Position numbers and translations under genes: made by a program
The notes under the pieces: model-generated
The model's input: the letters and a program-made list of their open reading frames with translations, nothing else
What the model was told of the DNA's origin: nothing
Database searches by the model: none
Part shown: piece after piece, positions 549-24,372 of the stretch
How positions within the stretch are numbered: position 1 is the first letter of the stretch
Layout: every line of letters starts with the position of its first letter
From: a virus
IMG/VR virus record: IMGVR_UViG_3300044619_000861
Coordinates: 1 to 26,129 of that record
Length of the DNA stretch: 26,129 bases
Reading direction: 5' to 3' (one strand)

Positions 549-3500
549 ATGGCTGATCGTTATTGGGTTGGTGGAAGTGGAAGCTGGAATAGCACCACGA
601 AGTGGTCCACAACGTCAGGCGGTGCCTCTGGCGCTTCTGTTCCTACGGCCTCTGACAATGCGATCTTCGATGCGGCTTCTGCCACCGCCCACTACACCGT
701 CACGGTTACAGACAACGCCACCTGCGCCAACCTGACCTTCACGCCTGAGCCTGCTGATGGCGTCACGCAGTTTTCTGTCGGCACTGGCTTCGTCATCGCT
801 GGCACGTTCTCGACCTCTGGCACTCAGGGCAACCGCCGTGCTTGGTTTCGCTCCTCAACAGAGGGGCTTATGCGTGATATGCAGATTGCCACCATTGGCA
901 CTGTGACCGACGTAGACTTCCGCGACATCCGTGTCACTGGCACTGGAGGGACGCTGACAGGCACCCGCATTGGCGACCTTCGCGGCAACAGCAATATCAC
1001 GTTCAGCACGCCCAAGAACTGCTTCCGCATCGGCACTGGCAACTGGTCTGACAATCAGTGGTCGGATACGTCTGGCGGCTCACCCAACACGAACTTCTTC
1101 CCACTGGCCCAAGACACTGCGGTGTTTGACGAAAGCACGACCGCTGGCACTCATGCGACGAACAATGCTATCCCTTACACGGGGTCAGTGGACATGAGTG
1201 CGCGGACGAGTGCGCTGACGTTGAGTGTAGGCACCCCTCTGACGGTTTATGGTAACTGGACGGTCGGCTCTGGCATTACCTATACTGGTTCCGCCGCGCT
1301 TACCTTCTCTGGCCGCAACACTCAAGTAATCACCAGCGCAGGCAAGACGTTTTTTAGTGCGCTCACCGTTGACTCCTACGGCGGCACGGTCGAACTTGCT
1401 GATGCGCTGAATATCGGCAGCAATACACTCTCCGTCACCAATGGCACCTTCGACACCAAGGGCTACAACGTCACGGCTGGCGTTCTGTCGTCCAGCAACA
1501 GCAACGTGCGTGAGATCAAACTGGGTGCAAGCACGGTTACGTTGAGTAATGGGGCTACGACATGGGCGTTTACAACAAGCACCAATTTGTCTTTTGATGC
1601 TGGGACGTCGCAAATAAACATCACATATACCCCGCCAACTTTTAACGGGGGCGGACTAGTTTTTAACAACATTGCGTTTACAAACACAGCATCAAACAGC
1701 GTAACGATAACTTGGCAAAACACATTCAACAACTTTTCGGTAACTGCACCAAGTTCTTCTGGAATTTCTCAGGTCTTCTTCGCTGGCAACCAAACCATCA
1801 CAGGCACCCTGACCGCCGCTGGTGCTACCGCTATCCGTCGTGTGATGCTCCTCTCAAGTGCTATCGGCACCACGCGCACCCTGACCGTAGGAACGCTGTC
1901 CGCTAACGACTGTGACTTCCGCGACATCACCATTGCTGGCACCGCCGCTGGTGGCTCTCCGACCCGTGCAGGCAACTGTGGTGGCAACTCTGGCGTGACC
2001 TTCCCTGCTGGCAAGACGGTCTACTGGAACCTTGCAGGGACGCAGAACTGGAGTGCAGACGGCTGGGCTACATCTAGCGGTGGCGTACCCGCCACGAACA
2101 ACTTCCCGCTGGCCCAAGATACGGCGGTGTTCGATAACACTGGGTCTGCTGGGACGGTAGGACTTGAGACGTGTAATATCGGCACCATCGACATGTCTGC
2201 AAGAACAACCGCGATGACGATTGGCACTAACGGTTCGCCATTTGTCTACGGAAATGTCACTATGGGGTCCAGCACCACAGTAAGCAGCACAAGCAATAGT
2301 ATTACCTTTTCTGGCCGCAGCACCTCCACGATCACCAGTAACGGAGTATCGTTCGCTCGTCCCATCACCATCGACTGCGGCACAGGTACCGTACAGCTTG
2401 CAGATGCGTTGGAGCTTACTTCTGCTCGGACCTTGACGCTCACATCGGGCACCTTTGATGCTGTGTCGTATAATGTGACGTCTGGCCTGCTTGATGGCAG
2501 TAATACCAACACCAGAACGCTTAAAATGGGTTCTGGAACTTGGACCCTGTCTGGGGCGGGTAGCGTTTGGAACGTAGCCACAACGACAAACCTTGCCCTA
2601 TATACAGGCACCGCTGACATCCTGCTGTCAAACACCAGCACAACAACCCGCTCTTTTTCTGGCGGCGGTCTGTCCTACAACAAACTCACCATCGGCGGTG
2701 CAACTGGCACATCGACGCTGACGATCTCGAGCAACAACACCTTCACAGAACTTGCCAGCACCAAGACTGTCGCCCATACCATCGCTCTGGGGACAACCGT
2801 CCAGACCTTCGGCAAGTGGAGCGTGACGGGAACTTCTGGCAACGTGGTGACGCTGACAGGGACAGGCACAAGCCACATCCTCGCTGGTGCTTGCACAGAC
2901 GGCATCGACTATCTTGCGATGGGTAGCATCGGCTTTGCAGCCACATCTCCTGCCGAGTTCTACGCTGGCGCAAACAGCACGGGGACCGCTGCCGTTCCTG
3001 TTTACCGCACAGCCAAGCCCGCCGACAGCACACGCTACTGGGTGGGTGGCACTGGCAACTGGAACGACACAGCCCGCTGGTCCACCTCCTCCGGTGGCGC
3101 TGGTGGGGCCGATCTGCCACGCAGCCATGATGATGTGGTGTTTGATAGTCTGTCTAACGCTACGGCCTACACGGCCACTGTGAACGCCATCACGGGGGGC
3201 AACCGCTGCAAGGCTTTGACTGTCGCTGGTCCTCTTGTTGGCAACGTGACGCTGGCTGGATCGACTGCGCTGTTCATCCACGACGACATCACCCTGCCTG
3301 CGACTGCGCTGACGCGGACGTATACGGGTGCGATCACGCTGACAGGTACGGGTGCGGGCAAGACGATTACGACTAACGGTGTGACGCTGGCGTCTGCTAT
3401 TACGGTTGATGGCGTGGGGGCTGAGTGGGCGTTGGCCGATGCTTTGAACATGGGTTCGAGCGCGATTACCGTTACCAACGGGTCGTTTGACACAGCTAAT

Positions 3501-11709: not shown

Positions 11710-12936
11710 ATGTCGGGTGTTTACAACCGGAAACTCTTCCGAAAGTCTTCTGCCCGCGACGAGCTTCGCCGCATGGGTGGGATTATGGCCAGCTCCGAGG
11801 AGCTGATGGCCGAGGCCATGAAGACCGCGCAACAAGCTCCGCGGCCCTCGGGCCTTGGGTCTATGGCCATGCCCGCACCGCAGGCTCCGATGCCGATGCA
11901 GCAGCCCATGATGGCCCAGCCGATGGGTATGCCGATGCAGCAACCCATGATGGCCCAGCCGATGATGGGGATGCCGATGCAGCAGCCGATGATGGCCCAG
12001 CCGTTCATGCCGCCGCAGGTTCCGCAGTCGGTTCAAGCGGCTCCGGCTCAAGCTGTCCCCGGGTTTTTCGCCGGTGGTCTGATCAACATGCTGCCCACGA
12101 TGGGCGGCTCTTCCGCTGCGTCGGAGACGGAGCAACCTACCTCGCGTCCAAACCCTAACCGGGGTATCGGGATCGGCCCTTCCACTGTCCGGTCGGTGGA
12201 CGTTTCAAAGCCCGCCGGTTCTTACCAGCGTGAAAACCCCCTGCCGCCGTCCGTGGTCAAGCGGGCCGAGGAGCTTGCGAAGAAGGTGGACGAACAGTCC
12301 CCGGAAAAGACGGCCTTAGAAATTCTAGACGCAGCTGCTGCCGAGGGCGGCCCGGAGCAGACCGGAAACACCCAGCCCGACCTTGCCGCGGTCTACGAAA
12401 GCCTGACGGGAGACCCGGCGGCCTACGAAAAGAACATCGATACCCTGAACCGCGGCATCATTGGTGCGGCGATTGCTGCGGGAACCTCCGCACGTGCTAC
12501 GGAGAACATTGCTAGGGGTATGCTGGTTGGACTTGAAGGCGCGAAGGCCACCGAGGAGCGGCGGGCTAAAGACGCGCAGGCCTTGCGGATCGCGGCGGCA
12601 GAGGCTCGGGCCCTTGAGGCGAAGGCCTCGGCCGAACAAACGAGGGCCGACAGGAAAGCTCTTATTGAGGCGGAAGCGAAACTCGCAGAGGAAAAGCGGA
12701 AGGTCTTTAACGACACCTTTACCTCAGTGATCGAGGCGGGGATTGACAAGGTCACTATCCCTGACGGCATGAGTATCGAAGAGTACGCCCGGGACATTGC
12801 TCAGGAGCAGGTCCTCTTGAACTTCCCTGATGAGCGGGCACTGACCGAGGCCCGCGCGGCCTTGGCGGCGGGGGCGGATAAGGCCGAAGTTGAGAAACGG
12901 CTCAGAGAAAATGGGATTGATCCGGGGAGACTCTAA
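11710..12936 (+). CDS. Structural protein with Met/Gln/Pro tandem repeat
   Basis: This encodes 408 residues. ATG 11710 is one base after the upstream stop, with GGAG 6 bases before. The N-terminus is basic (VYNRKLFRKSSARDELRRMG). Residues 61-99 are three tandem copies of MPMQQPMMAQP. Then come a Gly-rich hydrophobic patch (GFFAGGLINMLPTMGGSS), a Pro-rich linker and long charged helices to the end (ATEERRAKDAQALRIAAAEA, ALIEAEAKLAEEKRKVFNDT). FFAGGLINM resembles the AGG[LI] patches of phage structural proteins. It probably acts with its neighbours as an internal or ejected virion protein. It overlaps the following gene by TAATG. Confidence 0.72.
   Translation: MSGVYNRKLFRKSSARDELRRMGGIMASSEELMAEAMKTAQQAPRPSGLGSMAMPAPQAPMPMQQPMMAQPMGMPMQQPMMAQPMMGMPMQQPMMAQPFMPPQVPQSVQAAPAQAVPGFFAGGLINMLPTMGGSSAASETEQPTSRPNPNRGIGIGPSTVRSVDVSKPAGSYQRENPLPPSVVKRAEELAKKVDEQSPEKTALEILDAAAAEGGPEQTGNTQPDLAAVYESLTGDPAAYEKNIDTLNRGIIGAAIAAGTSARATENIARGMLVGLEGAKATEERRAKDAQALRIAAAEARALEAKASAEQTRADRKALIEAEAKLAEEKRKVFNDTFTSVIEAGIDKVTIPDGMSIEEYARDIAQEQVLLNFPDERALTEARAALAAGADKAEVEKRLRENGIDPGRL
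11890..12006 (+). repeat. Tandem in-frame repeat (39, 42 and 36 bases)
   Basis: There are three near-identical units coding MPMQQPMMAQP: 11890-11928, 11929-11970 and 11971-12006. Unit 2 has one extra Met codon and unit 3 ends in Phe. Only scattered synonymous changes (CAG/CAA, CCC/CCG) separate the units, so they are recent or kept alike. Length change by slippage or recombination would stay in frame. Confidence 0.9.
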
Positions 12937-15900
12937 TGGGAATGTTCGACGACCTCATCCCGGAGGGGTCTCGGAAGGCTCCTGAAGCAACGACTCCGGC
13001 GGCCGAGGCCCCGGAGGAGGACAAGTCGTTTCTCGAGAGTGCCGCGGATACCGCCGTCACTGCGGGGTCGGAGTTTGGCCGAGCCATCCCGTCCGCCGTC
13101 ATCAGTCTTGCTCAGGGCATCACCGAGTTTGGGGCAGCCGGTCTTGATGCAGCGTTTGGCACGAACACTTCCCGCGCCGTCACGGACAACTTCGAGTACG
13201 TGAAGTCTTATGTTAAGCCGCAGACCGCCGGTGGAGAAATCTTTGAGGACGTCTTGGCCTTTGGTCTGGGGTTTGTTCCGGTTGCCGGGTGGCTTGGACG
13301 TGCAAACGCTGCGGCAAAGGCCGCCAATGCCGGAAAAACAATCACCCCGGCAGCGAGTAGGTTTGCCCGCAGTGCAGACAATTTTGGTCGGTCCGCGCAG
13401 GGCCGGGCCGTTCTCGGCAATCGGGCTAAACTCATCGGTACTACCGCCGCGGCAGCAGCCGGGTACGAGACGTTGTTTACCCCGGACGGTCGCGTGACGC
13501 TGTCTGATACGTTCAGCCTTGGTGGTCCTCTGGAGACCGAGGGCGACACCGGACTTAGCGGTCGGGAAGAAGCCATGCGCCGCATTCGGAACAAGCTTCG
13601 TGCGGGGGCCGAGGGCGGCCTGTTGAGCGGGGTCTTTGACACTGCGCTCTTCGGCATCGGCAAGGGCGTGGCTGCCGCTGGTAGCACCGACACCGCCGCG
13701 GCAGCAGCTCGGGGCATTCGTGCTGGGATGGGTATTGTTGGCGGCGGCCTAAGCCGCATCCCCGGTGCGGAGACGGCCGGACGTGTTGCCACTCGATACC
13801 TTACCGCGTCTGGCGGAGCTGACCCACGCGTCTTTGAAGAAGCCGCGGATACCACGGCAAGATTCACCGGCATCAAAGGCCGTTCGATCTCGGCCTTTGA
13901 TGAACTCGAGCGGGAAATGCGCAGGGTGGTTTCGCCTCCGTTCATGAACCTGTTCGGCAAGGGGAAGGCAAAGGCTCGGGAGGCCGAGGCCGACATGTTC
14001 CGCTACCTGACGGGAACGGGGCCGGACCTTTCCAAGTACGGCCCGAAAGTTGCTGCCGCAGGTGAGCGCGTCCTACAGGCTGCCAACAAAGAGCGGGACC
14101 GCTTCTACGCCACGCTAGAGCGTGAAGTAGACATGGCTCCTGTGGGTAATCGTAAGACGGCCCTGAGAAACGTCCTCAAGGACATGGATGATCACGCGGC
14201 TGCCGAGAAGGGTGTTCTTCGCAGGGTGTTCCAAGTCCACAAGGACCCGATTGCTTTCTACAAGAGCTTGGACCTCAAGTACGACGGGGAAGGAAATCTC
14301 ATTGGGAAAAGCGCTCCGCAATACAATATAGCCGTCAGGGAAGTGGCTCAGAACCTGAACCCTTCTAACCCCTTGGCCGAGGAAACTCAGGCCTTGGCGC
14401 GGTATACGGTCAACAAGTCTATCGGCCTTGGCGCGATCAACAACGGCATGGACCCGGGCGCGGCAATCAAGGACAAGCTTTCGAAGCTCAAGGGAGAGGT
14501 TGCGACCCCCGAAGGGAACCTGTTCGCCAAGGACATGCCTCGGTTCAGGATGACGCGCTCGTTGGTCACCAAGCGCGAGAAAGCCGTCGAGGATTCTCCG
14601 GCCCTTCGGCAGCTTCTTGGGGAGATCACGGACCCTCGTGAGCTGTATGTCCAGACCATTGGCGACTTGGCACAGACGTCGGAGGCCCTTCGGTTTTACG
14701 GAAACATGGCCAAGTCTGGTGTCACCTCCTCTCTTGCTGATGCCGTCCCTGCCCTCCGCGAAGGGGCGCGGCCTTTGTTTGTTCGGGTCCCGGATGCCTC
14801 TGAAACCATGACAGGCTTTGACCTGAGTCCCTTTGTTCAAAAGGCCAGAGAGCTCAACGTACAGACGATGGTTCCGGGGGCCGCGGGACCAGATTTCCCG
14901 GCCGAGTTTGCAGGAGAGATCGGCTGGGACGATGTGCTCAAGTCTTACACCGACGAACTCACCTTGAACGGCTACGTAAAGCTGGGGGAGATAGACCCCG
15001 CTAGTAATGACCTCTTTGTCGGCTCCTACGGCCAGCTCACGGGTCTCTACGTTACGCCCGAGACGTACCGTGCGCTCAGTGCCCCTGCTCGTATTGGTGT
15101 GACAGGTCTCGACGAGGCCGTTTCAATTCTTGCGCAACTCAAGGGCCTGTCGCAAAAGATGACCGTGGTCCCCAGCCTTGCAAGCCAGATGCGGTCTGCC
15201 ATCGGCAACCTGATCGCGCTTGTTGGGACAGGGAACCTCGGGCGTTCGACGGACGTCATGGACGTCTTCCAAGTCTTCACTGCCAATCTGGAGAACCTCG
15301 ACAAGGCAGGGCTCGAACGGCTTTCAAGCGTCATCAGCCTGAGCGGGACGTCAGAGACCAACCTCGTCATCCAAGCGCTTCAGGAGTACAAGGAAACCAG
15401 CAACAGCGCCCTGCTGTCAGGGAAGTTGCGGAACCTGATCGAAAAAGGCGAGAGCCTTGTCCCCTTCCTAAACTTCTTCGAGCGCACCTTCTCGGGGACG
15501 GACTCTTTCTTCAAGGGTGTGGCGGTCGTTTCAGAGCAGAACAAGCTTCTCGAAGCCCTCGCTAAGGCGGGGTTTGACGAAGACTCTTACCCGGCCGATT
15601 TGCTTGAGGACCTTGTGGCCCAAGGCATTGCCAAGAGAACCTCTAGCGCCGCAAACCCCAGCCTGAGTGCGGTTGAGGTTGTCGCAGCAGACGCCGTGAA
15701 AGACATGTTCCCGATCCAAAACCGGGTAGGCCTGTTTGTGCGAGAGCTTGACAAGCTGCCCATTCTCGGGGCTTTCACCTCGTTTGCTTCGGAGAACATC
15801 CGCAACTCGGTCAATATCCTCGACCGCGGGCTGAAGGAGATGTCGTACTCGGTCTCCGAACCTATCCGTGGACGGCTTGGGGAGGAGGCGGCCAGAGCCT

Positions 15901-17324
15901 TTGAGCGGGCCATTCGAGCCCACGGCGCTCAGCGCCTTACCTCGTATGTTGCAACCGCTGTTGTGATCCCGAAGTCGGCTGTCGCCGCGTCGATGATGGC
16001 GACGGGGACTACCCCCGAGCAGATGCAGGCGCTCTATGCCCAGACCAACGAGCTTCTTCCGGGGCACGACCTCCTTGTCATCGGCAACGATCAGAAGGGC
16101 AAGATCGAGTACCTCGACCTTAGCTACGTTACACCGTTCTCCTTTGTGGTTGACTCGGCCACCGCAGGTCTCCGCGCCTACAGCGAGGCCGGTGAGGTGG
16201 GCAAGAGTCAGGCGCAGCAGCTGTTGAACGGCGTCTGGGCCGGGGTTCTTTCCTACTCTGATCCGTTTGCCTCGGAAGCGATGTCTTCTGAGCGCATCTT
16301 CGACGTCCTTCCGTCTGCCCGCAACGGCCGCACAAAGACAGGGAGCGTGGTCTACAATCAGTCCGACCCGATGTCCGAGAAGGTTCTGAGCTCTATCAAC
16401 CACCTCACCGCACCCTACGTTCCGGGTTACATGCGGGACTTCTACGAGGTGAGAGAAGGCGAGATGCGCCCCGGCGCTATCGCTCGAGCCTTCTTTGGAA
16501 TGCCCACGGCCCAAGGTAAGGACCTGAACCTTCCGTCCGAGTTTGCAAAACTTGTCACGGGGCTGAAGCCGATGGAGCTTAACCTTCGTCGCGACTTCCA
16601 GTTCGCTGGCGGCAAGTACTCGCCTCTCCGCACCGAGGCCAAGTCCGCCGCCCTCCGCAAGATACGAGCTGCCGACCGGACGCCGGAGGAGATGATGGGT
16701 GCGTGGAACCAGTACCTCGACAACCTCTATCGAGAGCAGTCGAAGCTCTATGCCGACATTCAAAATGCTCGGACCTTGGGCCTTTCGGACAGGGACATTC
16801 GGCGGCAGCTGATCGGGGAAGCCAAGCTCGGCACCGACGAAGTCAACCGAATCATGCGCGGAGAGTTCTATCCGGGAACGGTGTCTGAAGAACTCATGCA
16901 GGATATCCGGCGGCAGGAGCGGAACGAGGGGATCAACCGTGTCACCCCGTCCTCCGCAATCCCCTACGCCGCTTTCCGGAAGGCGTCTCGAGATCGTGCT
17001 CGCGAACCGCTGCAGTCGGAAGTTCCCCAAGAGGCGGCCGAAACGGAAACGACCCCCGCCGCACCAGCGGCAAGACCTGCCCGTCAACGCACAGGGGTGT
17101 TTGACGATCTGCTACCTACTGCCGGTGGCGCAGGCGGTGGAAGCTCGTCGTCACAAGGGGCGGCACCGCCGCCCCCCGCCTTCGATTCAGTGCCAGCACC
17201 GTCGGCACCACAGCTGCCGACAGCACCGGCGAATAGGGCCTCCTTGTCTCCGAGCCTTCTCGGAGGTGACCTCGCATCGCAGATGGCGAATATGGAAATT
17301 GCACAGCGTATCTCGGGTCAGTAA
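12936..17324 (+). CDS. Very large internal/ejection-type virion protein
   Basis: This encodes 1462 residues. ATG 12936 overlaps the upstream stop (TAATG) and has GGGGAG upstream. It begins MGMFDDLIPEG; a matching VFDDLLP lies at residues 1388-1394 near the disordered, Pro/Ser-rich C-terminus. Early Ala/Gly-rich hydrophobic regions (FEDVLAFGLGFVPVAGWLGR and others) could insert in membranes. The long middle is helical and charged, with conserved-looking stretches such as PSLASQMRSAIGNLIALVGT and LDLSYVTPFSFVVDSATAGL. Size, composition and position at the end of the structural block match the giant internal proteins of short-tailed phages, which leave the head with the DNA and help cross the cell envelope. 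No transglycosylase or peptidase signature was identified. The last 7 bases overlap the convergent 17318-17530 gene. Confidence 0.75.
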   Translation: MGMFDDLIPEGSRKAPEATTPAAEAPEEDKSFLESAADTAVTAGSEFGRAIPSAVISLAQGITEFGAAGLDAAFGTNTSRAVTDNFEYVKSYVKPQTAGGEIFEDVLAFGLGFVPVAGWLGRANAAAKAANAGKTITPAASRFARSADNFGRSAQGRAVLGNRAKLIGTTAAAAAGYETLFTPDGRVTLSDTFSLGGPLETEGDTGLSGREEAMRRIRNKLRAGAEGGLLSGVFDTALFGIGKGVAAAGSTDTAAAAARGIRAGMGIVGGGLSRIPGAETAGRVATRYLTASGGADPRVFEEAADTTARFTGIKGRSISAFDELEREMRRVVSPPFMNLFGKGKAKAREAEADMFRYLTGTGPDLSKYGPKVAAAGERVLQAANKERDRFYATLEREVDMAPVGNRKTALRNVLKDMDDHAAAEKGVLRRVFQVHKDPIAFYKSLDLKYDGEGNLIGKSAPQYNIAVREVAQNLNPSNPLAEETQALARYTVNKSIGLGAINNGMDPGAAIKDKLSKLKGEVATPEGNLFAKDMPRFRMTRSLVTKREKAVEDSPALRQLLGEITDPRELYVQTIGDLAQTSEALRFYGNMAKSGVTSSLADAVPALREGARPLFVRVPDASETMTGFDLSPFVQKARELNVQTMVPGAAGPDFPAEFAGEIGWDDVLKSYTDELTLNGYVKLGEIDPASNDLFVGSYGQLTGLYVTPETYRALSAPARIGVTGLDEAVSILAQLKGLSQKMTVVPSLASQMRSAIGNLIALVGTGNLGRSTDVMDVFQVFTANLENLDKAGLERLSSVISLSGTSETNLVIQALQEYKETSNSALLSGKLRNLIEKGESLVPFLNFFERTFSGTDSFFKGVAVVSEQNKLLEALAKAGFDEDSYPADLLEDLVAQGIAKRTSSAANPSLSAVEVVAADAVKDMFPIQNRVGLFVRELDKLPILGAFTSFASENIRNSVNILDRGLKEMSYSVSEPIRGRLGEEAARAFERAIRAHGAQRLTSYVATAVVIPKSAVAASMMATGTTPEQMQALYAQTNELLPGHDLLVIGNDQKGKIEYLDLSYVTPFSFVVDSATAGLRAYSEAGEVGKSQAQQLLNGVWAGVLSYSDPFASEAMSSERIFDVLPSARNGRTKTGSVVYNQSDPMSEKVLSSINHLTAPYVPGYMRDFYEVREGEMRPGAIARAFFGMPTAQGKDLNLPSEFAKLVTGLKPMELNLRRDFQFAGGKYSPLRTEAKSAALRKIRAADRTPEEMMGAWNQYLDNLYREQSKLYADIQNARTLGLSDRDIRRQLIGEAKLGTDEVNRIMRGEFYPGTVSEELMQDIRRQERNEGINRVTPSSAIPYAAFRKASRDRAREPLQSEVPQEAAETETTPAAPAARPARQRTGVFDDLLPTAGGAGGGSSSSQGAAPPPPAFDSVPAPSAPQLPTAPANRASLSPSLLGGDLASQMANMEIAQRISGQ

Positions 17325-17530
17325 TCAAACTTCGGGTTGACCTCCACGGTCAACCCGTGAGCCCCGAACAGCTGCACCATCTCGTCGATGTCCTCGAAGA
17401 CTTCTTCGAAAGCCTCCACGCCGTAGGCGTCGGCAAGGTTGAGAGCATGCGCCATCACCCTCGTCAGCGCCGCGATCTGCATCGGGTCCATGTCCTTGAA
17501 ACCAATGCACTTTATTTCCTGCTCGTTCAT
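17318..17530 (-). CDS. Small acidic protein of unknown function at the operon end
   Basis: This encodes 70 residues from ATG 17530, which overlaps the polymerase stop by four bases (ATGA) and has GGGGAGAGG shortly before it. The protein is acidic and mostly helical (MQIAALTRVMAHALNLADAY, GVEAFEEVFEDIDEMVQLFG), ending in LTVEVNPKFDY. No family was recognised. Being last in the replication operon, directly after the polymerase, it could be a polymerase accessory protein or have an unrelated role; this is only positional inference. Its last 7 bases overlap the end of the large virion gene on the opposite strand, and a perfect hairpin (17333-17357) lies inside its 3' end. Longer upstream extensions of the frame are the shadow of the polymerase gene. 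Confidence 0.65.
   Translation of the reverse strand: MNEQEIKCIGFKDMDPMQIAALTRVMAHALNLADAYGVEAFEEVFEDIDEMVQLFGAHGLTVEVNPKFDY
17333..17357. terminator. Perfect hairpin at the convergent gene junction
   Basis: The arms CGGGTTGAC (17333-17341) and GTCAACCCG (17349-17357) pair fully around a 7-base loop. It starts 9 bases after the stop of the plus-strand virion gene and lies in the last codons of the minus-strand gene. On the minus strand AAGTTTGATTACTGA follows, a weak T-containing tail; on the plus strand no T run follows. Its position between two converging transcription units suggests a bidirectional terminator or transcript-end stabiliser. Confidence 0.5.
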
Positions 17531-19437
17531 CCGGCCTCTCCCCAATTGTTGCCGAGTTCTTGGTCCACTTTGCTGGGGACCTTGAGGGACAACCCTTCTT
17601 CCATGATCTTGGTGATCCGGGCCGCCTGCTCGTCGGTCTCCACGTTGAAGCACAGTTCGTCATGCACCGTGAGGAGCGGGACCAGTCCCTCCTCGTAGCA
17701 CTGTGCCATGGCGAGTTTGTTCTGATCGGCAGCCGATCCTTGGATCACGCGGTTCAGGGCCTTGTAGGTAAACGCCCGTCTCAGGCGACCCATCCCACCG
17801 TACTCACGCTGCGCGTCGTCGTACTTCATGGGCTTATTGTAGCCGAAGCTGGCAGGTTCCCAAAGATCAAAGCGGCACAGACGGCCGCCGATTGTGCGAA
17901 TCTTGCCCTCCCGATCTGCCCGCGTCGAAGCCAGCGTGGCCAGCTTCTTCACGAAAGGCACCTTGTCTTGGTACTCGGCCATCAGGGCCTTTGCCTGCAC
18001 GTCCGTCAGCCCGAGCTGGTTGGCAAGCTTGCCCACGCCCATGCCGTACATGATGCCGAGGTTGATGGTCTTGGCAGACTTCCGGCTGATGCCCGCCATG
18101 TCGGCCACCATCTGGTGCAGGTCGGCGTCGCCCCGGTTGTACTCGTCCACGATGGACAGGACCAAAGGATCGCGCTCCGTCTCCGGGTGGCTGGCTGCGA
18201 AGTGCACCAAGAGCCGCGGTTCTTGGGACGAGTAGTCGAACGACCCCCACTTGCATCCATCCTCCGGGACAAAAAGTCCCCGGATTAATCCTTTGATGTA
18301 GGGGTCTCTCGCAGGTATCTGCTGCAGGTTTGGGTTCGAGCTGCTGAAGCGTCCTGTCACCGTGCCGCCATCGTCGGAGCGGAGCTGGTGCATTTCGCAG
18401 TGGATGCGGCCGTTGCTCTGGTAGCGCAGGATCGAGTCGATGAACGTGCTGTCGGCCTTGTCCATCTCGCGCAGGTTGACGAGGGCCTTGGCCACCGGGT
18501 GGTCCATGGCCTGCAGGAACTGCTTCGTGAACGACGGTGCTCCGGCCTCGGTCCTTGGGTAGGGCAGGCCGAGGGCATCGAACATCTTCTGCACCGAGGC
18601 GGCCGCCCACGGGTCAACCTTGACCCCAGACTCTTTGGCAATCCACGCGGCCAGCTCGTCGGCCTTCTTGCGCAGCTCCTTCTTGGCGATCTCGGCCTTG
18701 TCCAGATCAACGCGGACCCCGCGCATCCGCATGTCGATGACGGCCGGGAGCACACGGTGCTCCAGATCGCAGACGGACAGCAGGCTCTGGTCCTCGAGCT
18801 GGGGCTTCAGCCGCTCCCACAGCTTGAGCGTCAGCACCGCATCCTGCTCGGCGTAGACGCCCACGTAGCGGGCCGGGAGCTTCCACATCTCGGCCTTCGG
18901 ATCGATGCCCCACTCTGCGGCTGCGCTCTTCAGGACCTTCTCGTCCTTGCGCATGCCCAGATAGTCCTTGCCCAAGAGGTCGAGGCGGTAGGACAGGCGG
19001 TTCTCGTCCAAGAGCGGGGCGACCAGCATGGTGTCGATCACCGGACCTTGGACCGTGATCCCCGAAGCCATGAGCCAGCCCAAGTCGTAGCTGGCGTTGT
19101 GCATGATCTTGGTGATGTGCGGCGTCGCAAGCTGCTTCTGCAGCCAGCGGAACACCACCTTCTTGTCAAGGTTCGGCCCCTTGGCGTGGGCGATGGGGAA
19201 GTAGCCGGAGAAGTCCCCGGCCGCAATGGCGATGCCAATGATCTCGCCATGCTTGGTTGCCCAGCCCGGACCCATGGTGGTCAGGTTCGGGTCCCGCGTT
19301 TCGAGGTCGATGGCCATCGTCCTGTTGTTCGTCAGGTCCGGAAACTCGGAGGGCATGAACCACTCGACATCCGGGTTGGCGAGGTCCATCTTCAGCAGGA
19401 AGTCATCCGTGCTGACGTCGAAGCGGTCTTTACTCAC
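17527..19437 (-). CDS. Family A DNA polymerase with 3'-5' proofreading domain
   Basis: This encodes 636 residues from GTG 19437, preceded by GGGGAA and overlapping the upstream stop; ATG 19389 is a less likely start. The exonuclease domain (DEDDy) shows AIDLETRDPN (Asp/Glu about 44 and 46), MHNASYDLGWL (about 112-122) and YAEQDAVLTL (Tyr 195, Asp 199). The polymerase domain shows TVTGRFSSSNPNLQQIPARD (about 359-378), motif A FDYSSQEPRL (Asp about 401), motif B RKSAKTINLGIMYG (Lys 456, Tyr 464) and motif C VHDE (591-594). There is no 5'-3' nuclease domain. The residue matching E. coli Pol I Phe762 is Leu (about 460), a variant known from viral polymerases. It replicates the phage genome together with the primase, helicases and SSB-like protein of this operon. 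Confidence 0.95.
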   Translation of the reverse strand: MSKDRFDVSTDDFLLKMDLANPDVEWFMPSEFPDLTNNRTMAIDLETRDPNLTTMGPGWATKHGEIIGIAIAAGDFSGYFPIAHAKGPNLDKKVVFRWLQKQLATPHITKIMHNASYDLGWLMASGITVQGPVIDTMLVAPLLDENRLSYRLDLLGKDYLGMRKDEKVLKSAAAEWGIDPKAEMWKLPARYVGVYAEQDAVLTLKLWERLKPQLEDQSLLSVCDLEHRVLPAVIDMRMRGVRVDLDKAEIAKKELRKKADELAAWIAKESGVKVDPWAAASVQKMFDALGLPYPRTEAGAPSFTKQFLQAMDHPVAKALVNLREMDKADSTFIDSILRYQSNGRIHCEMHQLRSDDGGTVTGRFSSSNPNLQQIPARDPYIKGLIRGLFVPEDGCKWGSFDYSSQEPRLLVHFAASHPETERDPLVLSIVDEYNRGDADLHQMVADMAGISRKSAKTINLGIMYGMGVGKLANQLGLTDVQAKALMAEYQDKVPFVKKLATLASTRADREGKIRTIGGRLCRFDLWEPASFGYNKPMKYDDAQREYGGMGRLRRAFTYKALNRVIQGSAADQNKLAMAQCYEEGLVPLLTVHDELCFNVETDEQAARITKIMEEGLSLKVPSKVDQELGNNWGEAG

Positions 19438-19723
19438 AGGCGCATTCCCCGGCGATGGCGGCATAGGCAGCCGCGTCCACATAGTTGTCCTCGTGATAGC
19501 CCCCGTTCAGGGAACGAGCGGCCTTGAGCATAACCATCATCCACGCCACGTCCTCGGAAGTGATCGTCACTTGAAGCTCGTTCCTCTGGCTCAGGTACAG
19601 CGCCCAGAACTCTGCGATGTTGGACAGGTTTTGTTCAACCGGGCCGTAGGAGTCCTGTCGTTCCCCGCCCGTCACCTCGGCTGCGCGCTTCAAGATTTTG
19701 ATTCTCATCTGGTCAGACGACAT
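19430..19723 (-). CDS. DUF6378-like phage protein
   Basis: This encodes 97 residues. ATG 19723 was chosen because AAGGA lies 8 bases upstream, inside the end of the helicase gene; an internal ATG at 19708 lacks such a site. The sequence KILKRAAEVTGGERQDSYGP, then NLSNIAEFWALYL, DVAWMMVMLKAARSLNGGYH and NYVDAAAYAAIAGECA fits a small family of phage proteins I know as DUF6378. Members lie in phage replication or nucleotide-metabolism regions; the activity is not known to me. The helical pattern with conserved Glu/Asp (E..SYG, HEDNYVD) resembles MazG-like all-alpha pyrophosphatases, so nucleotide cleaning is a possibility only. It overlaps the helicase by 11 bases and the polymerase by 8. Confidence 0.7.
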   Translation of the reverse strand: MSSDQMRIKILKRAAEVTGGERQDSYGPVEQNLSNIAEFWALYLSQRNELQVTITSEDVAWMMVMLKAARSLNGGYHEDNYVDAAAYAAIAGECACE

Positions 19724-21239
19724 AGCGGTAGTCCTTGTCTGTGTGCACGAAGCACAGGTGTTTCTTTGCCCGGCTGCCCATGACATAGGCCAGACGGTGT
19801 TCGTCGTCGGGGAAGGCGGTGTTGACGCAGGCCTTGGTGGACGACAGATCGACTGCGACGTTGTCCTCCTCCCCGCCCTTGGCCGCATGCCCCGTGGACA
19901 CGGTGATCCGGGGTTCGCCCGAGATGTCCTCGCCCCGGCGCTCGAGGCCCCGGATGTATTCCGCCTCGGTCTCCCCGAGGTTCAGGACCCGAAGCGCATC
20001 GAGCTGCTGTGGGGCGATCATGCCCACGGCCGACACCAGATAGTCGTAGTCGTAGCTCTCCGTCGGGCTGAGCGCCTCGAGGAGCTTGGCCGATCCGCGC
20101 TTCACTGCCGCCGCATCCCCCTGCTTGGGCAGCATCTCATAGAGCGCCTTGATCGAGGCCAGCGGCAGCGCCTCCCCGCGCTGCAGGGCCCGCCACCCTT
20201 TGATGGCAGAGGAGACCTTCGGGTCCACGGAGTTGCGGCCGTAGAGCTTGAACATGTAGCCGTCCTTGCGCAGGCGCTGGGCCCAGTCCTGCACGTAGCT
20301 GTTGGTGCGGGCCAGCACCATCCAGCGTCCGGTCGATAGGTCCAAGTTGCGCGGCCCGATGACCCTGCTCACCGATCCCTCATGCTCGGCCGGATGGAAC
20401 TCCTTGGGCAGGCGGTCTCGGATGCGCGCCGACAGGGACACGCAGACATCGTAGACAGGCTTGGGCAAGCGGAAGCTCTGGGACAGCACCTCGATGTTGC
20501 GGGAGCTTTCCATGAACAGCTTCACTTTCACCCCGGCCCAGCGGTGGATCGCCTGATCGTCGTCCCCTGCGAAGATCACCCGATCTGCCCGCTCGGCCAA
20601 GAGCTCCACCATCCGCCACTGCAGGGGCGTCAGGTCCTGCGCTTCATCGACCACGAGGAGCTTGAGCCTCGGCCCTTGGAGCTCCTGCACCACGACCTCG
20701 TTGATCATGTCCACGAACGAGAACTTGTTGTAGGTGCTCTTGAAGTAGGCCAGCTCTGCCTCGACCTTCAGGAGCATGGGCCAAGACATGGACCAGTCGT
20801 TCATTTCCGAGAACTCCTGCTCGAGCGGAATGCAGCGCATGATCGAGCGCTCGATGGCGGCGACGTACTTATCCCCGCCCACCGTCTGCGCGATGATCAT
20901 GCCGTCCTTGGCAGAGTGATCGTTGGTCCCGATGATGTCGAGGCCAAGGCCCCGGCCGAAGTTGCGCCAATCTGCCTGCGTCATGATCTGCGTGGCGGCG
21001 AGGCCCAGCATCCGCATGCCTGCGGAGTGCAGGGTGCGGAACCACGGCAGGTCCTTGGGCTGCAGGTTGAACCTAGCGCAGGCCCGATCTCGCGCCTCCT
21101 CCACAGCCTTGCGGGTGAAGGAGAAGACGGCGATCTCGTCAGGCCTCGTCCCCCGAGCCAGCTCCATCTCCACTTCCGAGATTAGCCTGTGGGTTTTTCC
21201 GCACCCGGGGGGACCGAGCAACAGCTTTCTCTGTTCCAT
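19713..21239 (-). CDS. UvrD/Rep-like superfamily 1 DNA helicase
   Basis: This encodes 508 residues. ATG 21239 follows GAGGGAAG and must be near the true start, since the Walker A motif GPPGCGKT is at 9-16. Motif Ia FSFTRKA is at about 39-45, motif II VVDEAQD at 196-202, motif III FAGDDDQAIHRWAG at 223-236, and motif IV-like SQSFRLPKPV follows. Motif V-like TGHAAKGGEEDNV is at about 449-461 and motif VI-like YVMGSRAKKHLCFV at 485-498, with the arginine finger candidate Arg490. It is shorter than UvrD (about 720 residues), so accessory insertions are reduced. It should unwind DNA 3' to 5' or remodel replication or recombination intermediates. Motif V has GlyGly where KGLE is usual. The first 101 bases overlap the upstream HTH gene in another frame. 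Confidence 0.9.
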   Translation of the reverse strand: MEQRKLLLGPPGCGKTHRLISEVEMELARGTRPDEIAVFSFTRKAVEEARDRACARFNLQPKDLPWFRTLHSAGMRMLGLAATQIMTQADWRNFGRGLGLDIIGTNDHSAKDGMIIAQTVGGDKYVAAIERSIMRCIPLEQEFSEMNDWSMSWPMLLKVEAELAYFKSTYNKFSFVDMINEVVVQELQGPRLKLLVVDEAQDLTPLQWRMVELLAERADRVIFAGDDDQAIHRWAGVKVKLFMESSRNIEVLSQSFRLPKPVYDVCVSLSARIRDRLPKEFHPAEHEGSVSRVIGPRNLDLSTGRWMVLARTNSYVQDWAQRLRKDGYMFKLYGRNSVDPKVSSAIKGWRALQRGEALPLASIKALYEMLPKQGDAAAVKRGSAKLLEALSPTESYDYDYLVSAVGMIAPQQLDALRVLNLGETEAEYIRGLERRGEDISGEPRITVSTGHAAKGGEEDNVAVDLSSTKACVNTAFPDDEHRLAYVMGSRAKKHLCFVHTDKDYRYVV

Positions 21240-21465
21240 GAAACTTCCCTCTTGGTCTTGCGTATAGCCAATCCTCGATCTCCTTCTTGGAGAACCGGGA
21301 CACTGAGTTTTGATCCTGCTCGTCGCCCAGCGAGTAGGGCTTCGGGAACTTCCCGTCCTTGATCCACTTGTACAAAGTGGACTCCGACAGGTTCAGCCAC
21401 CGGCATACATCGGCAGCTCTCAAGAGGCGGTCGTCCGCCTCAGAAGGGAATACTGGTTGCTTCAC
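21139..21465 (-). CDS. AlpA-like helix-turn-helix DNA-binding protein
   Basis: This encodes 108 residues from GTG 21465, with GGAG 7 bases upstream. Residues about 13-70 form an AlpA/HTH_17-type winged-helix domain: LLRAADVCRWLNLSESTLYK (helix-turn-helix), WIKDGKFPKPYSLG (wing) and VSRFSKKEIEDWLYARPRGK. Such proteins act as excisionase-like factors or as small transcription regulators, so it may control this operon or DNA transactions. From residue 76 on, the tail (GTEKAVARSPRVRKNPQANL, then Gly/Ser/Asp-rich) is encoded in the same 101 bases as the helicase N-terminus in another frame and looks like incidental extension. It overlaps the primase by 26 bases. Confidence 0.8.
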   Translation of the reverse strand: MKQPVFPSEADDRLLRAADVCRWLNLSESTLYKWIKDGKFPKPYSLGDEQDQNSVSRFSKKEIEDWLYARPRGKFHGTEKAVARSPRVRKNPQANLGSGDGAGSGDEA

Positions 21466-22981
21466 GTCTCGACTCCGATCTCATGTCCACATGGGACTCT
21501 TTGTAGGCAGGCACCCACCACACACGTATCGTTGAGGGAGCGCCGTCCTCTTTCTTCACGGCCTGATGGCCATTGCAGGCTGCACCCGAGTTGAGGTCTC
21601 GGATGAAGTTTTGTATCTGCGGGCGCGTCACCGTGGTGAACCCGCGGAACTTCAGGAACTCGGCCAGACCACCAAAGGTAAACTTGGTCAGGCCCTTGTC
21701 CGTCCAAGGCTTGCCCATGACCATCTCCTCTGGGACCATGGCCTTGATGTTGCTCGTGCAGTACTCCTTGATCAGGTCCTCGAACTGCCCGCGCAGCGTC
21801 AGCTCCGGCGGGGCTTCGATCTTGATCGCGGTGGACAGGAGATCGTTGACCAGCTTGTTCCACTCCGTGGGCTTGATCGTTGGCGGCATCCTATCCACCT
21901 GCTCGACGCAGGCTCTGCTGAAGGCCGACTGGACGGAGAGCTGCTCTGAGGTCAGCTCAAGACGCTGCCCGTCGTAGTCGAGGAAGAACATCTTGGGCGA
22001 CGAGTTGAGGATGGTCATGCCCGTGAGCTTCGGGAACTCGACAGGTCCACTACCCCCAATCCCATACTTGCGGGAGCGGCAGAGGTCCTTGTTGCAGAAG
22101 TTGCAGAGCGGCTGGGCTGTGCACTGGAACCCGTAGACTTTCTTATCGTGCTGCTTCTGCAGCGTGACAATCTCTTCCGCACCGAGAGGCTCGTCGCAGT
22201 ACCGCGCGTTGCTCTCCTCGAGCAGCTTCTTCCACCCCTCGGGGCTGGCCTTACGGTGCGCCACGATCATGTTGAACATGGTGATGTTGCGGTAGCTGTT
22301 GACTACACCTTGCTGGATGATCTGCTCCAGACAGGGTGGGTAGTCCTTCAGGTCATCGCGGGCTTCCACATGCGGAGCAATCTCGAGCTTCGACATGGGA
22401 ATCCGGTTAGCTTCCACCCTGTCGAGGAACTCCTCCAAGCTCAGCGCCTCACCCGTCTCCGAGATGGCATAGCGCACGGTGGTCTCGGCGTTGAAGTACG
22501 GCGTGTTGATGAAGTTGCCCACATCCCCACGGTCGAACAGTATCTTGTCCTGCTTCGGGAATATCTCCCGACCAGCAAAGCCAAGCACGGCCGCCATCTC
22601 GGTCAGGTATTCCCGCACCATGGCGGCCGGATACCAGTTGTCCAAGAATAGGTACAAGTGCGCACCGCCCGACTTCGAGCGGCACTGGATCAGCGGCAGC
22701 TTCTGGTTCTTGATACGTGCCGCCAAGGCCTTGTGGTCGAGGTCGTAGTCATCGACATCGATGGCCCCGAAGCAGCACTCGTTCTTCGAATTGATCGGGA
22801 TCGCGCCGACGCCCTGCTTGCCTGCAAGGTGCGCCTCGACGTGCTCCTCCGTCATCACCTCACGGATGACATAACTGTTGGCTTCTGCCTTGCCGTTTCT
22901 CGCAACTCGGCCCACGGTCGTTCGTCCATGGGCCAAGTCCGAGCCTTGAAAGGCAAGCAGAAGACGTCTGGCATTTGACAT
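21440..22981 (-). CDS. Archaeo-eukaryotic-type DNA primase (primase-polymerase)
   Basis: This encodes 513 residues from ATG 22981, with GGAG 6 bases upstream. The catalytic domain has CCFGAIDVDDYDLDH (acidic pair about Asp75/Asp77), SKSGGAHLYLF (about 103-112, His108) and EIFPKQD followed by GNFINTPYF (139-163), the pattern of AEP-superfamily primases such as those grouped with TOTE-type primases. A second part, from PPCLEQII (Cys217) and RNITMFN to CTAQPLCNFCNKDLC (Cys287, 293, 296, 301) and RSRKYGIGG, resembles the cysteine-bearing PriL-like/PriCT region and may bind an iron-sulfur cluster or zinc. The C-terminus is REATSIPF, like the tip of SSB tails. It lies in one operon with the SSB-like protein, helicase and polymerase, so it most likely makes primers for genome replication. 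Confidence 0.85.
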   Translation of the reverse strand: MSNARRLLLAFQGSDLAHGRTTVGRVARNGKAEANSYVIREVMTEEHVEAHLAGKQGVGAIPINSKNECCFGAIDVDDYDLDHKALAARIKNQKLPLIQCRSKSGGAHLYLFLDNWYPAAMVREYLTEMAAVLGFAGREIFPKQDKILFDRGDVGNFINTPYFNAETTVRYAISETGEALSLEEFLDRVEANRIPMSKLEIAPHVEARDDLKDYPPCLEQIIQQGVVNSYRNITMFNMIVAHRKASPEGWKKLLEESNARYCDEPLGAEEIVTLQKQHDKKVYGFQCTAQPLCNFCNKDLCRSRKYGIGGSGPVEFPKLTGMTILNSSPKMFFLDYDGQRLELTSEQLSVQSAFSRACVEQVDRMPPTIKPTEWNKLVNDLLSTAIKIEAPPELTLRGQFEDLIKEYCTSNIKAMVPEEMVMGKPWTDKGLTKFTFGGLAEFLKFRGFTTVTRPQIQNFIRDLNSGAACNGHQAVKKEDGAPSTIRVWWVPAYKESHVDMRSESRREATSIPF

Positions 22982-23004
22982 TGTCTTCTCCGGGCGCGGG
23001 TGGA

Positions 23005-23026
23005 TGAGGGGGCCGAAGCCCCCTCA
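23005..23026 (-). terminator. Perfect hairpin with UUCG loop between SSB-like and primase genes
   Basis: On the minus strand TGAGGGGGC pairs fully with GCCCCCTCA around TTCG (closed by C-G), an extra-stable tetraloop. It starts 4 bases after the SSB-like stop and ends before the primase ribosome site, filling most of the 48-base gap, the largest in this operon. No T run follows, so it is more likely an RNA stabiliser, processing site or partial attenuator than a full terminator. Confidence 0.55.
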
Positions 23027-23029
23027 GGC

Positions 23030-23812
23030 TCAAAACGGGATAGAATCGTCTCGGCCACCCTCGGAGTGGTTCTCGGCTTGCGCCTTCACCTCGCCGCGCA
23101 TGATGCTCTCGCGGAAGTTCTTGGCCTCAAGCAGAAGCTCACGGGTATCGACCATACCCAGCTTCTCGATGGACCAGTTGTAGAAGTCGCCCTTGTCGTT
23201 GGTCTCTTCCGTGGTCGTCAAGAGCCACATCGTAGCGAACACTGGCGGGGTAATGATGGCACCCGTCGTCGGGTGCTTGACCTTCTGCATGGCGATCTGC
23301 GTCTTCCAGCGACGCGAGACCTTGAGCTGCGTAGACTTCATGTCAACCACAACGGGCTGGGTCATGCCGTCTTCGTCAACGATCAGGCAGAAGTGCTGGT
23401 CAGACTTCACCAGCTCGTTGCCTGTCGGCAGGATTTCCTTGCTGCCGTTGCGGCTGGTGCGCTGCAGGATCGGATCGTTGGCGTTGATCTCTCCCCGGAA
23501 CCCGCCGCCGCTCTCGCGAGGGACAAACTCCAGATACTTCGTGGTCTGGTAGCAGGGGATGATGACCAGCCCCTTCTCGCCTGCCCACATCTGCCCGGTG
23601 AGCGTGTTGTACGCATCGCCCGTGGAGAGGCCCTCGATGTACTCGGGCTTCTTCTTGTTCAGTTGCGGCGACAGGGACTGCGCCACACGCACGAACGGGA
23701 TTTGCATCTCGGACGAGTCGAAGGCTGCGCCCTCTCCCGCCATGCCGAAGATGTCGTCCATCACGTCGGTGGACAGGGCGGTCTGGTTGGCTTTTGCCAC
23801 AGCAGTGGTCAT
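23030..23812 (-). CDS. SSB-like protein with acidic C-terminal tail
   Basis: This encodes 260 residues from ATG 23812, preceded by GGAGGA inside the end of the upstream gene. The N-terminus carries STDVMDDIFGMAGEG; then IPFVRVAQSLSPQLNKKKPE, WAGEKGLVIIPCYQTTKYLE, FVPRESGGGFRGEI and KVSRRWKTQIAMQKVKHPTT give a mixed beta core with basic patches. The last residues EGGRDDSIPF copy the acidic tip by which bacterial SSBs recruit partner proteins. I recall this family from phage replication regions as single-stranded DNA binding or unnamed. An OB-type fold is plausible but not proven by eye. It lies between a coiled-coil protein and the primase, with a stable hairpin behind it that could raise its mRNA level. 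Confidence 0.72.
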   Translation of the reverse strand: MTTAVAKANQTALSTDVMDDIFGMAGEGAAFDSSEMQIPFVRVAQSLSPQLNKKKPEYIEGLSTGDAYNTLTGQMWAGEKGLVIIPCYQTTKYLEFVPRESGGGFRGEINANDPILQRTSRNGSKEILPTGNELVKSDQHFCLIVDEDGMTQPVVVDMKSTQLKVSRRWKTQIAMQKVKHPTTGAIITPPVFATMWLLTTTEETNDKGDFYNWSIEKLGMVDTRELLLEAKNFRESIMRGEVKAQAENHSEGGRDDSIPF

Positions 23813-23814
23813 GA

Positions 23815-24372
23815 TTACTTCCTCCGGATATCAGCAGCGTTGACGACGTATGCACCGAACAGGTCGAGATCGATGGGCTTGCCACCCTCGACACGCTCTT
23901 TGACAAAAGCCTTCAGCGTCTGGGAATGAATGTGGGTCTTGATTTCGGGGTCGAAGCCCTGCTCACGCAGGATGCCGACAGCGTTCTTGGCAGCGTTGTC
24001 TTCGCCACGTCCGAAGGACACCGTCACATCGTTCTTGATGATGTCGTCCAGACCATTGTCGCGAAGCCAGCCGAAGGCCTTCTCGCGGTTGTCCTCAGAG
24101 ATCGAGGCCGACACGATGAGCTTGCGTGTCACAGCCACGCCGTCAACGTCGAGGCGGTCAACGCCCATCTCGTCCATCACGCCGGGGATCAGTTCGGTGG
24201 TGAGCTTCTGACGCTCCTGCTTCAAAGACTTGAGATCGGCTTCCACCTTCTCGATGTCCTTGTCCACCTGCCGCAACGTGCGGACGAGGTCGCTCAGGTT
24301 CCTGGTCTCTTGGGTGCCCACGTTTGACAGCGCGTCGGCTTCGCTGAAGATGTCGTCGAAGATGTCAGTCAC
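23815..24372 (-). CDS. Coiled-coil phage protein, first gene of the replication operon
   Basis: This encodes 185 residues from GTG 24372, with AGAGGA about 7 bases upstream; longer in-frame extensions would run through the divergent control region and the SNF2 gene and are rejected. The N-terminus is acidic (TDIFDDIFSEADALSN). Residues about 25-62 form a coiled coil (LVRTLRQVDKDIEKVEADLK, SLKQERQKLTTELIPGVM). The C-terminal part is alpha/beta with AFGWLRDNGLDDIIKNDVTV, SFGRGEDNAA and HIHSQTLKAFVKERVEGGKP. I recall such proteins, unnamed, in the replication regions of many phages. Two bases separate it from the SSB-like gene, and both share a DDIF motif near the N-terminus. It may be an SSB or replisome partner, by inference. 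Confidence 0.72.
   Translation of the reverse strand: MTDIFDDIFSEADALSNVGTQETRNLSDLVRTLRQVDKDIEKVEADLKSLKQERQKLTTELIPGVMDEMGVDRLDVDGVAVTRKLIVSASISEDNREKAFGWLRDNGLDDIIKNDVTVSFGRGEDNAAKNAVGILREQGFDPEIKTHIHSQTLKAFVKERVEGGKPIDLDLFGAYVVNAADIRRK

Follow-up and report, generated by a model that had tools for sequence, protein, structure and literature searches.

A conserved hairpin slot behind an SSB-like phage gene and its probable role as an RNA boundary element

Phage operons join the genes of stoichiometric proteins, such as SSB, with those of catalytic proteins, such as primase, helicase and polymerase. The locus analysed here raises the question of what a stable hairpin might do between two such genes. 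It lies in a 26,129-nt stretch of viral DNA (IMG/VR record IMGVR_UViG_3300044619_000861; hereafter the window, meaning this whole stretch), behind a gene for an SSB-like protein and ahead of a primase gene. A sequence-only reading had proposed that the hairpin stabilizes the upstream message and so could set the ratio of the two proteins. The features concerned are the following:

23005..23026, minus strand: UUCG-capped 9-bp hairpin (sequence, folds, conserved position)
23014..23017, minus strand: UUCG tetraloop closed by C-G (read from the sequence)
22982..23004, minus strand: spacer from the hairpin to the primase ATG, with a free Shine-Dalgarno-like GGAG and no U tract
23030..23812, minus strand: upstream cistron, Pam3_Gp34 / phrog_2402, SSB-like, 260 aa, tail DDSIPF
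21440..22981, minus strand: downstream cistron, AEP-type primase (AEP-TOTE, phrog_21866)
23815..24372, minus strand: Pam3 gp33-like gene (DUF7307 / phrog_2378) ahead of the SSB-like gene in this operon, its start being our choice

Along the minus strand, the stop codon TGA of the SSB-like gene (23032-23030) is followed by GCC, TGAGGGGGC (23026-23018), TTCG (23017-23014) and GCCCCCTCA (23013-23005). As RNA, the hairpin reads UGAGGGGGC-UUCG-GCCCCCUCA (23026-23005), then come UCCACCCGCGCCCGGAGAAGACA and the primase AUG at 22981. The stem consists of nine Watson-Crick pairs under a C(UUCG)G loop, and 23 bases separate it from the primase ATG. The sequence-only reading had the coordinates of stem and loop exactly and was correct that no U tract follows, but the spacer behind the SSB-like stop is three bases (GCC) and not four. 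Its description of this gap as the only sizeable one in the replication operon nearly holds: there are 48 nt here and 2 nt before the SSB-like gene, but a further 33 nt lie between the primase stop and the ORF at 21182-21406. Taken alone, the 22-mer hairpin folds at -19.0 kcal/mol, which none of 200 shuffles equals, and it is present in both the MFE and the centroid structure of its 57-nt context; the whole context is ordinary (z -1.5, 17 of 200 shuffles as good). Perfect stems of at least 9 bp with a loop of 3-8 nt occur at four window sites (5096-5125, 13871-13902, 17333-17357 and 23005-23026). Counting nested loops, these amount to 7 entries versus 0.82 per dinucleotide shuffle, and 27 of 50 shuffles have at least one. 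Since shuffled windows often carry such stems, the window stem is by itself unremarkable, and it is the location in a short gap, together with the conservation of this location, that gives it weight. Rfam has no match in the window at gathering score, and a further scan returned eight matches (E 0.21-4), each far under its gathering score. Hairpin-stimulated stop readthrough was considered and rejected, as the in-frame TGA GCC TGA would add two residues at most. Two of the other stems deserve a remark of their own. The 10-bp stem at 17333-17357 lies directly 3' of the plus-strand gene 12936-17324, within the end of the minus-strand ORF 17325-17663, and with its minus-strand tail AAGTTTGATT it is a candidate terminator at a convergent junction. 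The 13-bp stem at 5096-5125, the longest perfect small-loop stem of the window, is found in the last 60 bases of ORF 549-5150.

The upstream gene belongs to a family without assigned function (Pfam Pam3_Gp34 / phrog_2402; gp34 for short). The passages of PMC9382816 that match on Pam3 gp34 function treat Pam1 and Pam5 instead. Past the primase gene come a small ORF (21182-21406, 74 aa), the gene of a UvrD-like helicase, an ORF that PHROG labels phosphofructokinase, and the gene of a family A polymerase; ORF 19430-19888 overlaps the helicase and polymerase genes. By eye, the product of the small ORF is AlpA-like, without a PHROG match. An AlphaFold2 model of the SSB-like protein (mean pLDDT 79.7) had no Foldseek match at E 0.001, and the PDB sequence search gave a chance-level match only (malate dehydrogenase, E 0.14); an absent structural match rules out no family. 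With VIA-align 2, the model was matched to the phiC31 RDF (Z 8.2), the OB domain of BRCA2 (Z 6.8) and the cores of T4 and RB69 gp32 (Z 6.5; rmsd 4.6 with 152 aligned for the T4 core), where a Z below 8 can reflect merely a common arrangement. The C-terminus of the protein (...RDDSIPF) is an acidic tip ending in PF, with the consensus DDDxPF in our alignment A2; bacterial SSB shares this feature. The gp34-family gene of phiVC8 adjoins another gene that is itself annotated as coding for an ssDNA-binding protein. The label "SSB-like" of the sequence-only reading is fair in view of the modest OB-fold matches and the DDSIPF tail, but it is not proven; the protein of the window probably binds ssDNA. 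As a separate observation, the predicted fold is nearest the phiC31 recombination directionality factor, above T4 gp32, and a common origin of the phiC31 RDF and phage SSB is a testable idea.

Is the hairpin conserved? The sequence-only reading had named a lack of stem conservation in related phages as a refutation, and the element survives this check: a hairpin in this slot is kept across very distant relatives. The UUCG loop itself is not conserved. In a first set of 44 IMG/VR loci (numbered with the prefix L) encoding a gp34-family protein of 34-100% identity, nearly all have, by eye, a hairpin behind the gp34 stop, and the sequences are unrelated. Within the clade of the window the 8-bp core is kept under different caps, namely UUCG (window, L001-L003), UCCG (L005) and GUGA (L006-L009, L022); UNCG and GNRA are stable tetraloops. 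Compensatory changes were sought in this clade and rejected: only the loop and the outermost pair vary, and because the core is invariant we claim no covariation for it. In all 22 of the 22 annotated phages compared, which include Pbunavirus, Yuavirus, Abidjanvirus, Nanhaivirus, Myosmarvirus, phiVC8 and BcepF1, the gp34 gap shows a clear hairpin, with folds from -15.6 to -45.4 kcal/mol. When gaps were matched, a score of at least 20 on our own simple stem scale was reached by 21 of 22 gp34 gaps versus 8 of 33 other 40-110-nt gaps of the same records; the single miss, tabernarius, is probably explained by a 16-nt loop exceeding the limit of the test.

The larger set comprises 307 sequences (the window and 306 loci), all matching the protein profile, 303 of them with a stop and 4 without; L045, a copy from the window, and L068, without a gp34 gene, were left out of the clustering. 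At 80% identity the 303 sequences form 123 clusters, which share ancestry (LBL3 and E217, for example, are both Pbunavirus) and, not being phylogenetically independent, overstate the number of events when counted. In 106 of the 123 clusters, the 90 nt past the gp34 stop reach a folding energy of -15 kcal/mol or lower (median -20.3 versus -13.1 for dinucleotide shuffles; z at or below -2 in 86); control flanks from the same loci do so in 24% of cases for upstream genes (266 flanks) and in 34% for downstream genes (180 flanks). Because a 90-nt stretch may extend into coding sequence, the run was repeated on gaps only, for the 117 clusters with a definable next start, guessed as the first in-frame ATG or GTG (6 of the 123 have none). 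The gap measures at least 20 nt in 103 of the 117. Of these 103 gaps, 101 reach -10 kcal/mol or lower on folding, 87 contain one strong stem, and 75 fold better than every one of 30 letter shuffles. Counting against conservation are the 14 clusters whose gap of less than 20 nt has no room for a hairpin, as well as the 28 of 103 gaps that fail to beat all shuffles. A strong stem within 48 nt of the stop is found in 38 of 66 clusters for gp34, in 1 of 64 for the primase genes of these phages and in 21 of 615 random windows. In a Nanhaivirus-like clade (L047, L048, L229-L234, L237) we also noted a palindrome, GTTTAAAC, in the apical part of the gp34 hairpin, where it might give rise to kissing dimers; L054 belongs to this genus and is without the palindrome.

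Based on these comparisons, the hairpin most likely marks and protects the end of the message of the SSB-like gene. More specifically, we give a probability of about 0.6 to the window hairpin being a 3' boundary element of the SSB-like cistron that acts as a barrier to 3'-5' exonucleases. It would act as RNA on the coding strand. Transcripts would be cut or terminated within the primase-helicase-polymerase part, 3'-5' exonucleases would trim them back to the hairpin, and this trimming would leave a stable gp33-gp34 message. In relatives with a U tract, the hairpin would instead terminate a share of the transcripts outright. Either way, the SSB-like message would come to exceed that of primase. 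The comparisons thus support the sequence-only reading in part.

A different possibility is that the slot holds a leaky intrinsic terminator, whose window copy either lost its U tract or never had one. Predicted terminators are annotated in the same slot in the records of LBL3 and phiVC8, and 22 nt behind gene 32 of T4, a classical phage SSB gene, stands GGGGACC-CUAGA-GGUCCCC-UUUUUU. Moreover, a U tract (T>=5 of 8) stands behind the stem in 38 of 114 clusters, the remaining 9 of the 123 being left out of this count as their stem is too close to the end of the 75-nt stretch, so that termination may be the older role. However, 34 of the same 114 clusters have two T or fewer in these eight positions, and a U tract is missing altogether from the window hairpin and those of its near relatives (tails UCCACCCG, CCCACCCG, ACCCCCUU and CCACCUUC). 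The window hairpin has the GC-rich stem of a Rho-independent terminator, lacks the U tract required of one and is missing from the 14 terminator-like sites predicted in the window. For the window we consider termination the main rival reading, albeit an unlikely one. The 20-mer core of the window hairpin is present in at least 120 viral contig stretches. Among the matches listed, it stands directly behind an ORF stop in 111 of 120, versus 95 of 1200 random positions, is followed by T>=5 of 8 in 42 of 120 and lies behind gp34 in 2 of 120. All 22 of 22 letters of 23027-23006 recur in a gokushovirus record (E 0.05). Since the core recurs behind ORF stops, we regard the window hairpin as a common phage 3' punctuation hairpin. 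Our literature search found no usable published transcript ends for Yuavirus or Pbunavirus, nor a paper uniting SSB, downstream terminator, primase and intergenic hairpin.

Being a boundary element of the SSB-like cistron presupposes that the hairpin is tied to the upstream gene. Primase comes next in 66 of the 123 clusters, and depending on the phage the following gene can also be a UvrD/RecD/Dda-like helicase, Bbp1-like, a spanin, an ssDNA-binding protein or an endonuclease. A strong stem is present in 46 of 57 gaps with primase next and in 41 of 46 with another gene next. Two loci close to the window are also informative. L004 and L019 encode a protein with 97% identity to that of the window and have a different, longer hairpin directly behind gp34; in L004 an HNH_3 gene (Pfam E 3.7e-15; L004:1611-2045) is situated between gp34 and primase. 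There the primase ATG falls within the last 8 nt of the HNH_3 gene and the UUCG core is absent; the L004/L019 hairpin may have arrived with the insert. Because the slot is filled with or without primase, and in view of L004 and L019, we infer that the hairpin belongs to the 3' end of the SSB-like cistron. It may be added that two GGCTTGA(CACC) copies behind gp34 of L004 could pair alternatively with the intervening GGTGTCAAGCC, and that L019 has the same stretch behind gp34. A 7-bp hairpin at the primase stop (21441-21424) was tried as a second punctuation mark and rejected, as a strong stem occurs there in 1 of 64 clusters, the window's own.

The same observations bear on the idea that the hairpin is a 5' control element of primase, which would limit ribosome entry or serve as the binding site of a phage protein, perhaps the SSB-like one itself. 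Such a role is hard to reconcile with the strong stem in 41 of 46 gaps where primase is not next, and with L004, where primase is directly preceded by the HNH gene and not by the hairpin slot. In the window, furthermore, the hairpin leaves the Shine-Dalgarno-like stretch free, with 23 nt between the stem and the primase start. Distances in other phages are more favourable to it: in 27 of 84 strong-hairpin gaps ahead of primase (95% representatives), no more than 12 nt separate the stem from the guessed start. Also as expected of a protein site, the stem found in marine lineages covaries while its cap is invariant (see below), and T4 gp32 represses its own translation via RNA structure, albeit 5' of the gene, in the passages of PMC3014915 dealing with it. 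On balance, control of primase appears improbable. As an observation apart, in eight representatives, all from L024-L043 (L024, L029, L030, L033, L034, L036, L037 and L042), the hairpin is found 3-13 nt before the guessed primase start without a Shine-Dalgarno-like stretch in between, so primase may need coupled translation there; a hairpin at this distance would fit control of primase translation as well.

Whether the element functions as RNA or as DNA can be separated by a simple test, namely whether GNRA and UNCG caps are restricted to one strand. With both strands scored alike over 75 nt past the stop in the 123 clusters, 4-nt loops were found in 40; on the mRNA strand 10 of them are GNRA and 8 UNCG, on the opposite strand none is either, and our own arithmetic from equal base frequencies gives an expectation of about 2. 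Within the stems there are 59 G-U versus 18 A-C positions. Since the caps are found on the mRNA strand only and G-U pairs are in excess, we conclude that the element works as RNA, and these features point to selection acting on the transcript. A hairpin operating at the DNA level, e.g. a single-strand initiation or origin site beside the primase gene, would suit a place among replication genes and next to primase, but with RNA-specific tetraloops confined to the mRNA strand, G-U exceeding A-C and the slot kept where primase does not adjoin, it is very hard to credit. A chance stem without function, which the 0.82 perfect-stem entries of at least 9 bp per shuffled window might bring to mind, is refuted by the slot conservation against several controls, unless those controls are biased.

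In some relatives the slot is occupied by one of two further, covarying RNAs. The marine RNA (L111-L148 group, e.g. L131:3739-3800) lies between gp34 and primase; its stem is variable, its GAGA cap invariant and its internal loop rich in purines, and in some cases a small first hairpin precedes the main stem. In its stem 97.1% of cells are paired, and covariation is 0.447 versus 0.136 for shuffled and at most 0.167 for slid controls, as computed on 28 sequences picked by motif, an alignment of a kind that leans towards the motif. Pairs changed on both sides number five, a count reached by 298 of 500 shuffles and hence no excess. Loci whose motif looked different were left out: L095, L215 and L219 from the marine alignment (A6) and L085 from the freshwater alignment (A7). 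The strict marine pattern is present in at least 119 stretches; among the matches listed, 112 of 119 are directly behind the gp34 stop, and the remaining 7 have the motif no more than 140 nt from an end of the DNA stretch. The marine RNA has no match in Rfam or in the INPHARED phages.

The freshwater RNA (L072-L099 group behind gp34, L430-L549 elsewhere) consists of a variable covarying outer stem, GAAAGCGGAUGCUG, 10-40 nt and GCAGCGAGUA; its GAA.../AGUA part we take to be a loop-E-like motif. It is found in at least 120 stretches, and among the matches listed 7 of 120 are behind gp34. The genes upstream of it are varied (34 families in 93 loci), and each of the 14 contigs searched (32-91 kb) has one exact copy. 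From the 120 listed stretches come 109 distinct copies flanked by 8 nt at either end, and outer-stem positions 1-4 are paired in 107, 106, 107 and 103 of these (shuffled means 52-80), with several pair types at every position. The apical part shows no excess pairs in the chosen register, and RNAalifold gave no meaningful consensus for A7, probably due to this variable part. Among INPHARED phages the only good match is MW202710 (E 4e-10), that to Alcaligenes phage CASP1 being weak (E 0.005) and that to Bordetella phage vB_BaM-IFTN6 at chance level (E 0.7); in Rfam the freshwater RNA has no match. We consider it a candidate new structured RNA. Across 20 loci, 18 of them with either motif, the sole Rfam match at gathering score is int-alpA in L079, outside the slot; this RNA (RF02996, L079:5463-5528) is probably just 3' of the primase gene. 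Nothing on either RNA was found among the papers listed by the literature search, which is a thin basis for calling them undescribed. It is tempting to speculate, and we do so tentatively, that the slot has been refilled over evolution by tetraloop hairpins, U-tract terminators and at least two covarying RNAs, the latter undescribed and perhaps protein-binding 3'-end elements. With the slot kept across very divergent phages and its sequence fully turned over, the roles of RNA 3' ends versus promoters in setting protein ratios become testable.

How does the window hairpin compare with known systems? By analogy, the E-hairpin of the E. coli gal operon is the best documented counterpart. According to the passages on it in PMC11925234 and PMC9239205, it has an 8-bp stem and a 4-nt loop, blocks 3'-5' exonuclease and creates polarity, and the gal ends are made by Rho and RNase E rather than by an intrinsic terminator. 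Both hairpins combine a short GC stem with a small loop inside an operon, near a cistron boundary, and the window hairpin shows the sequence traits of this type: a GC stem and a small loop at the 3' end of a cistron, without a U tract. However, in the same passages the galE 3' end is about 130 nt past the galE stop, inside galT, whereas the window stem starts 3 nt past the stop in a 48-nt gap. The window hairpin also resembles the phage CUUCGG hairpins (Tuerk et al. 1988, as cited in PMC8948821) in its complementary stem under a C(UUCG)G loop, placed between genes on the phage mRNA strand. In the family of the window, however, it is the slot and not the loop that is kept, UUCG being one of several caps. 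The 3' hairpin of T4 gene 32 (L310) is likewise a strong hairpin behind a phage SSB gene, but it has a U6 tract and 22 nt from stop to stem, and any kinship of the two proteins is putative. The annotated Rho-independent terminators of LBL3 and phiVC8 belong to the same gene family and the same slot and differ by a U-rich tail, which the window does not have. In other words, the window hairpin is of a known kind, and the deep conservation of its slot together with the two covarying RNAs are the interesting parts.
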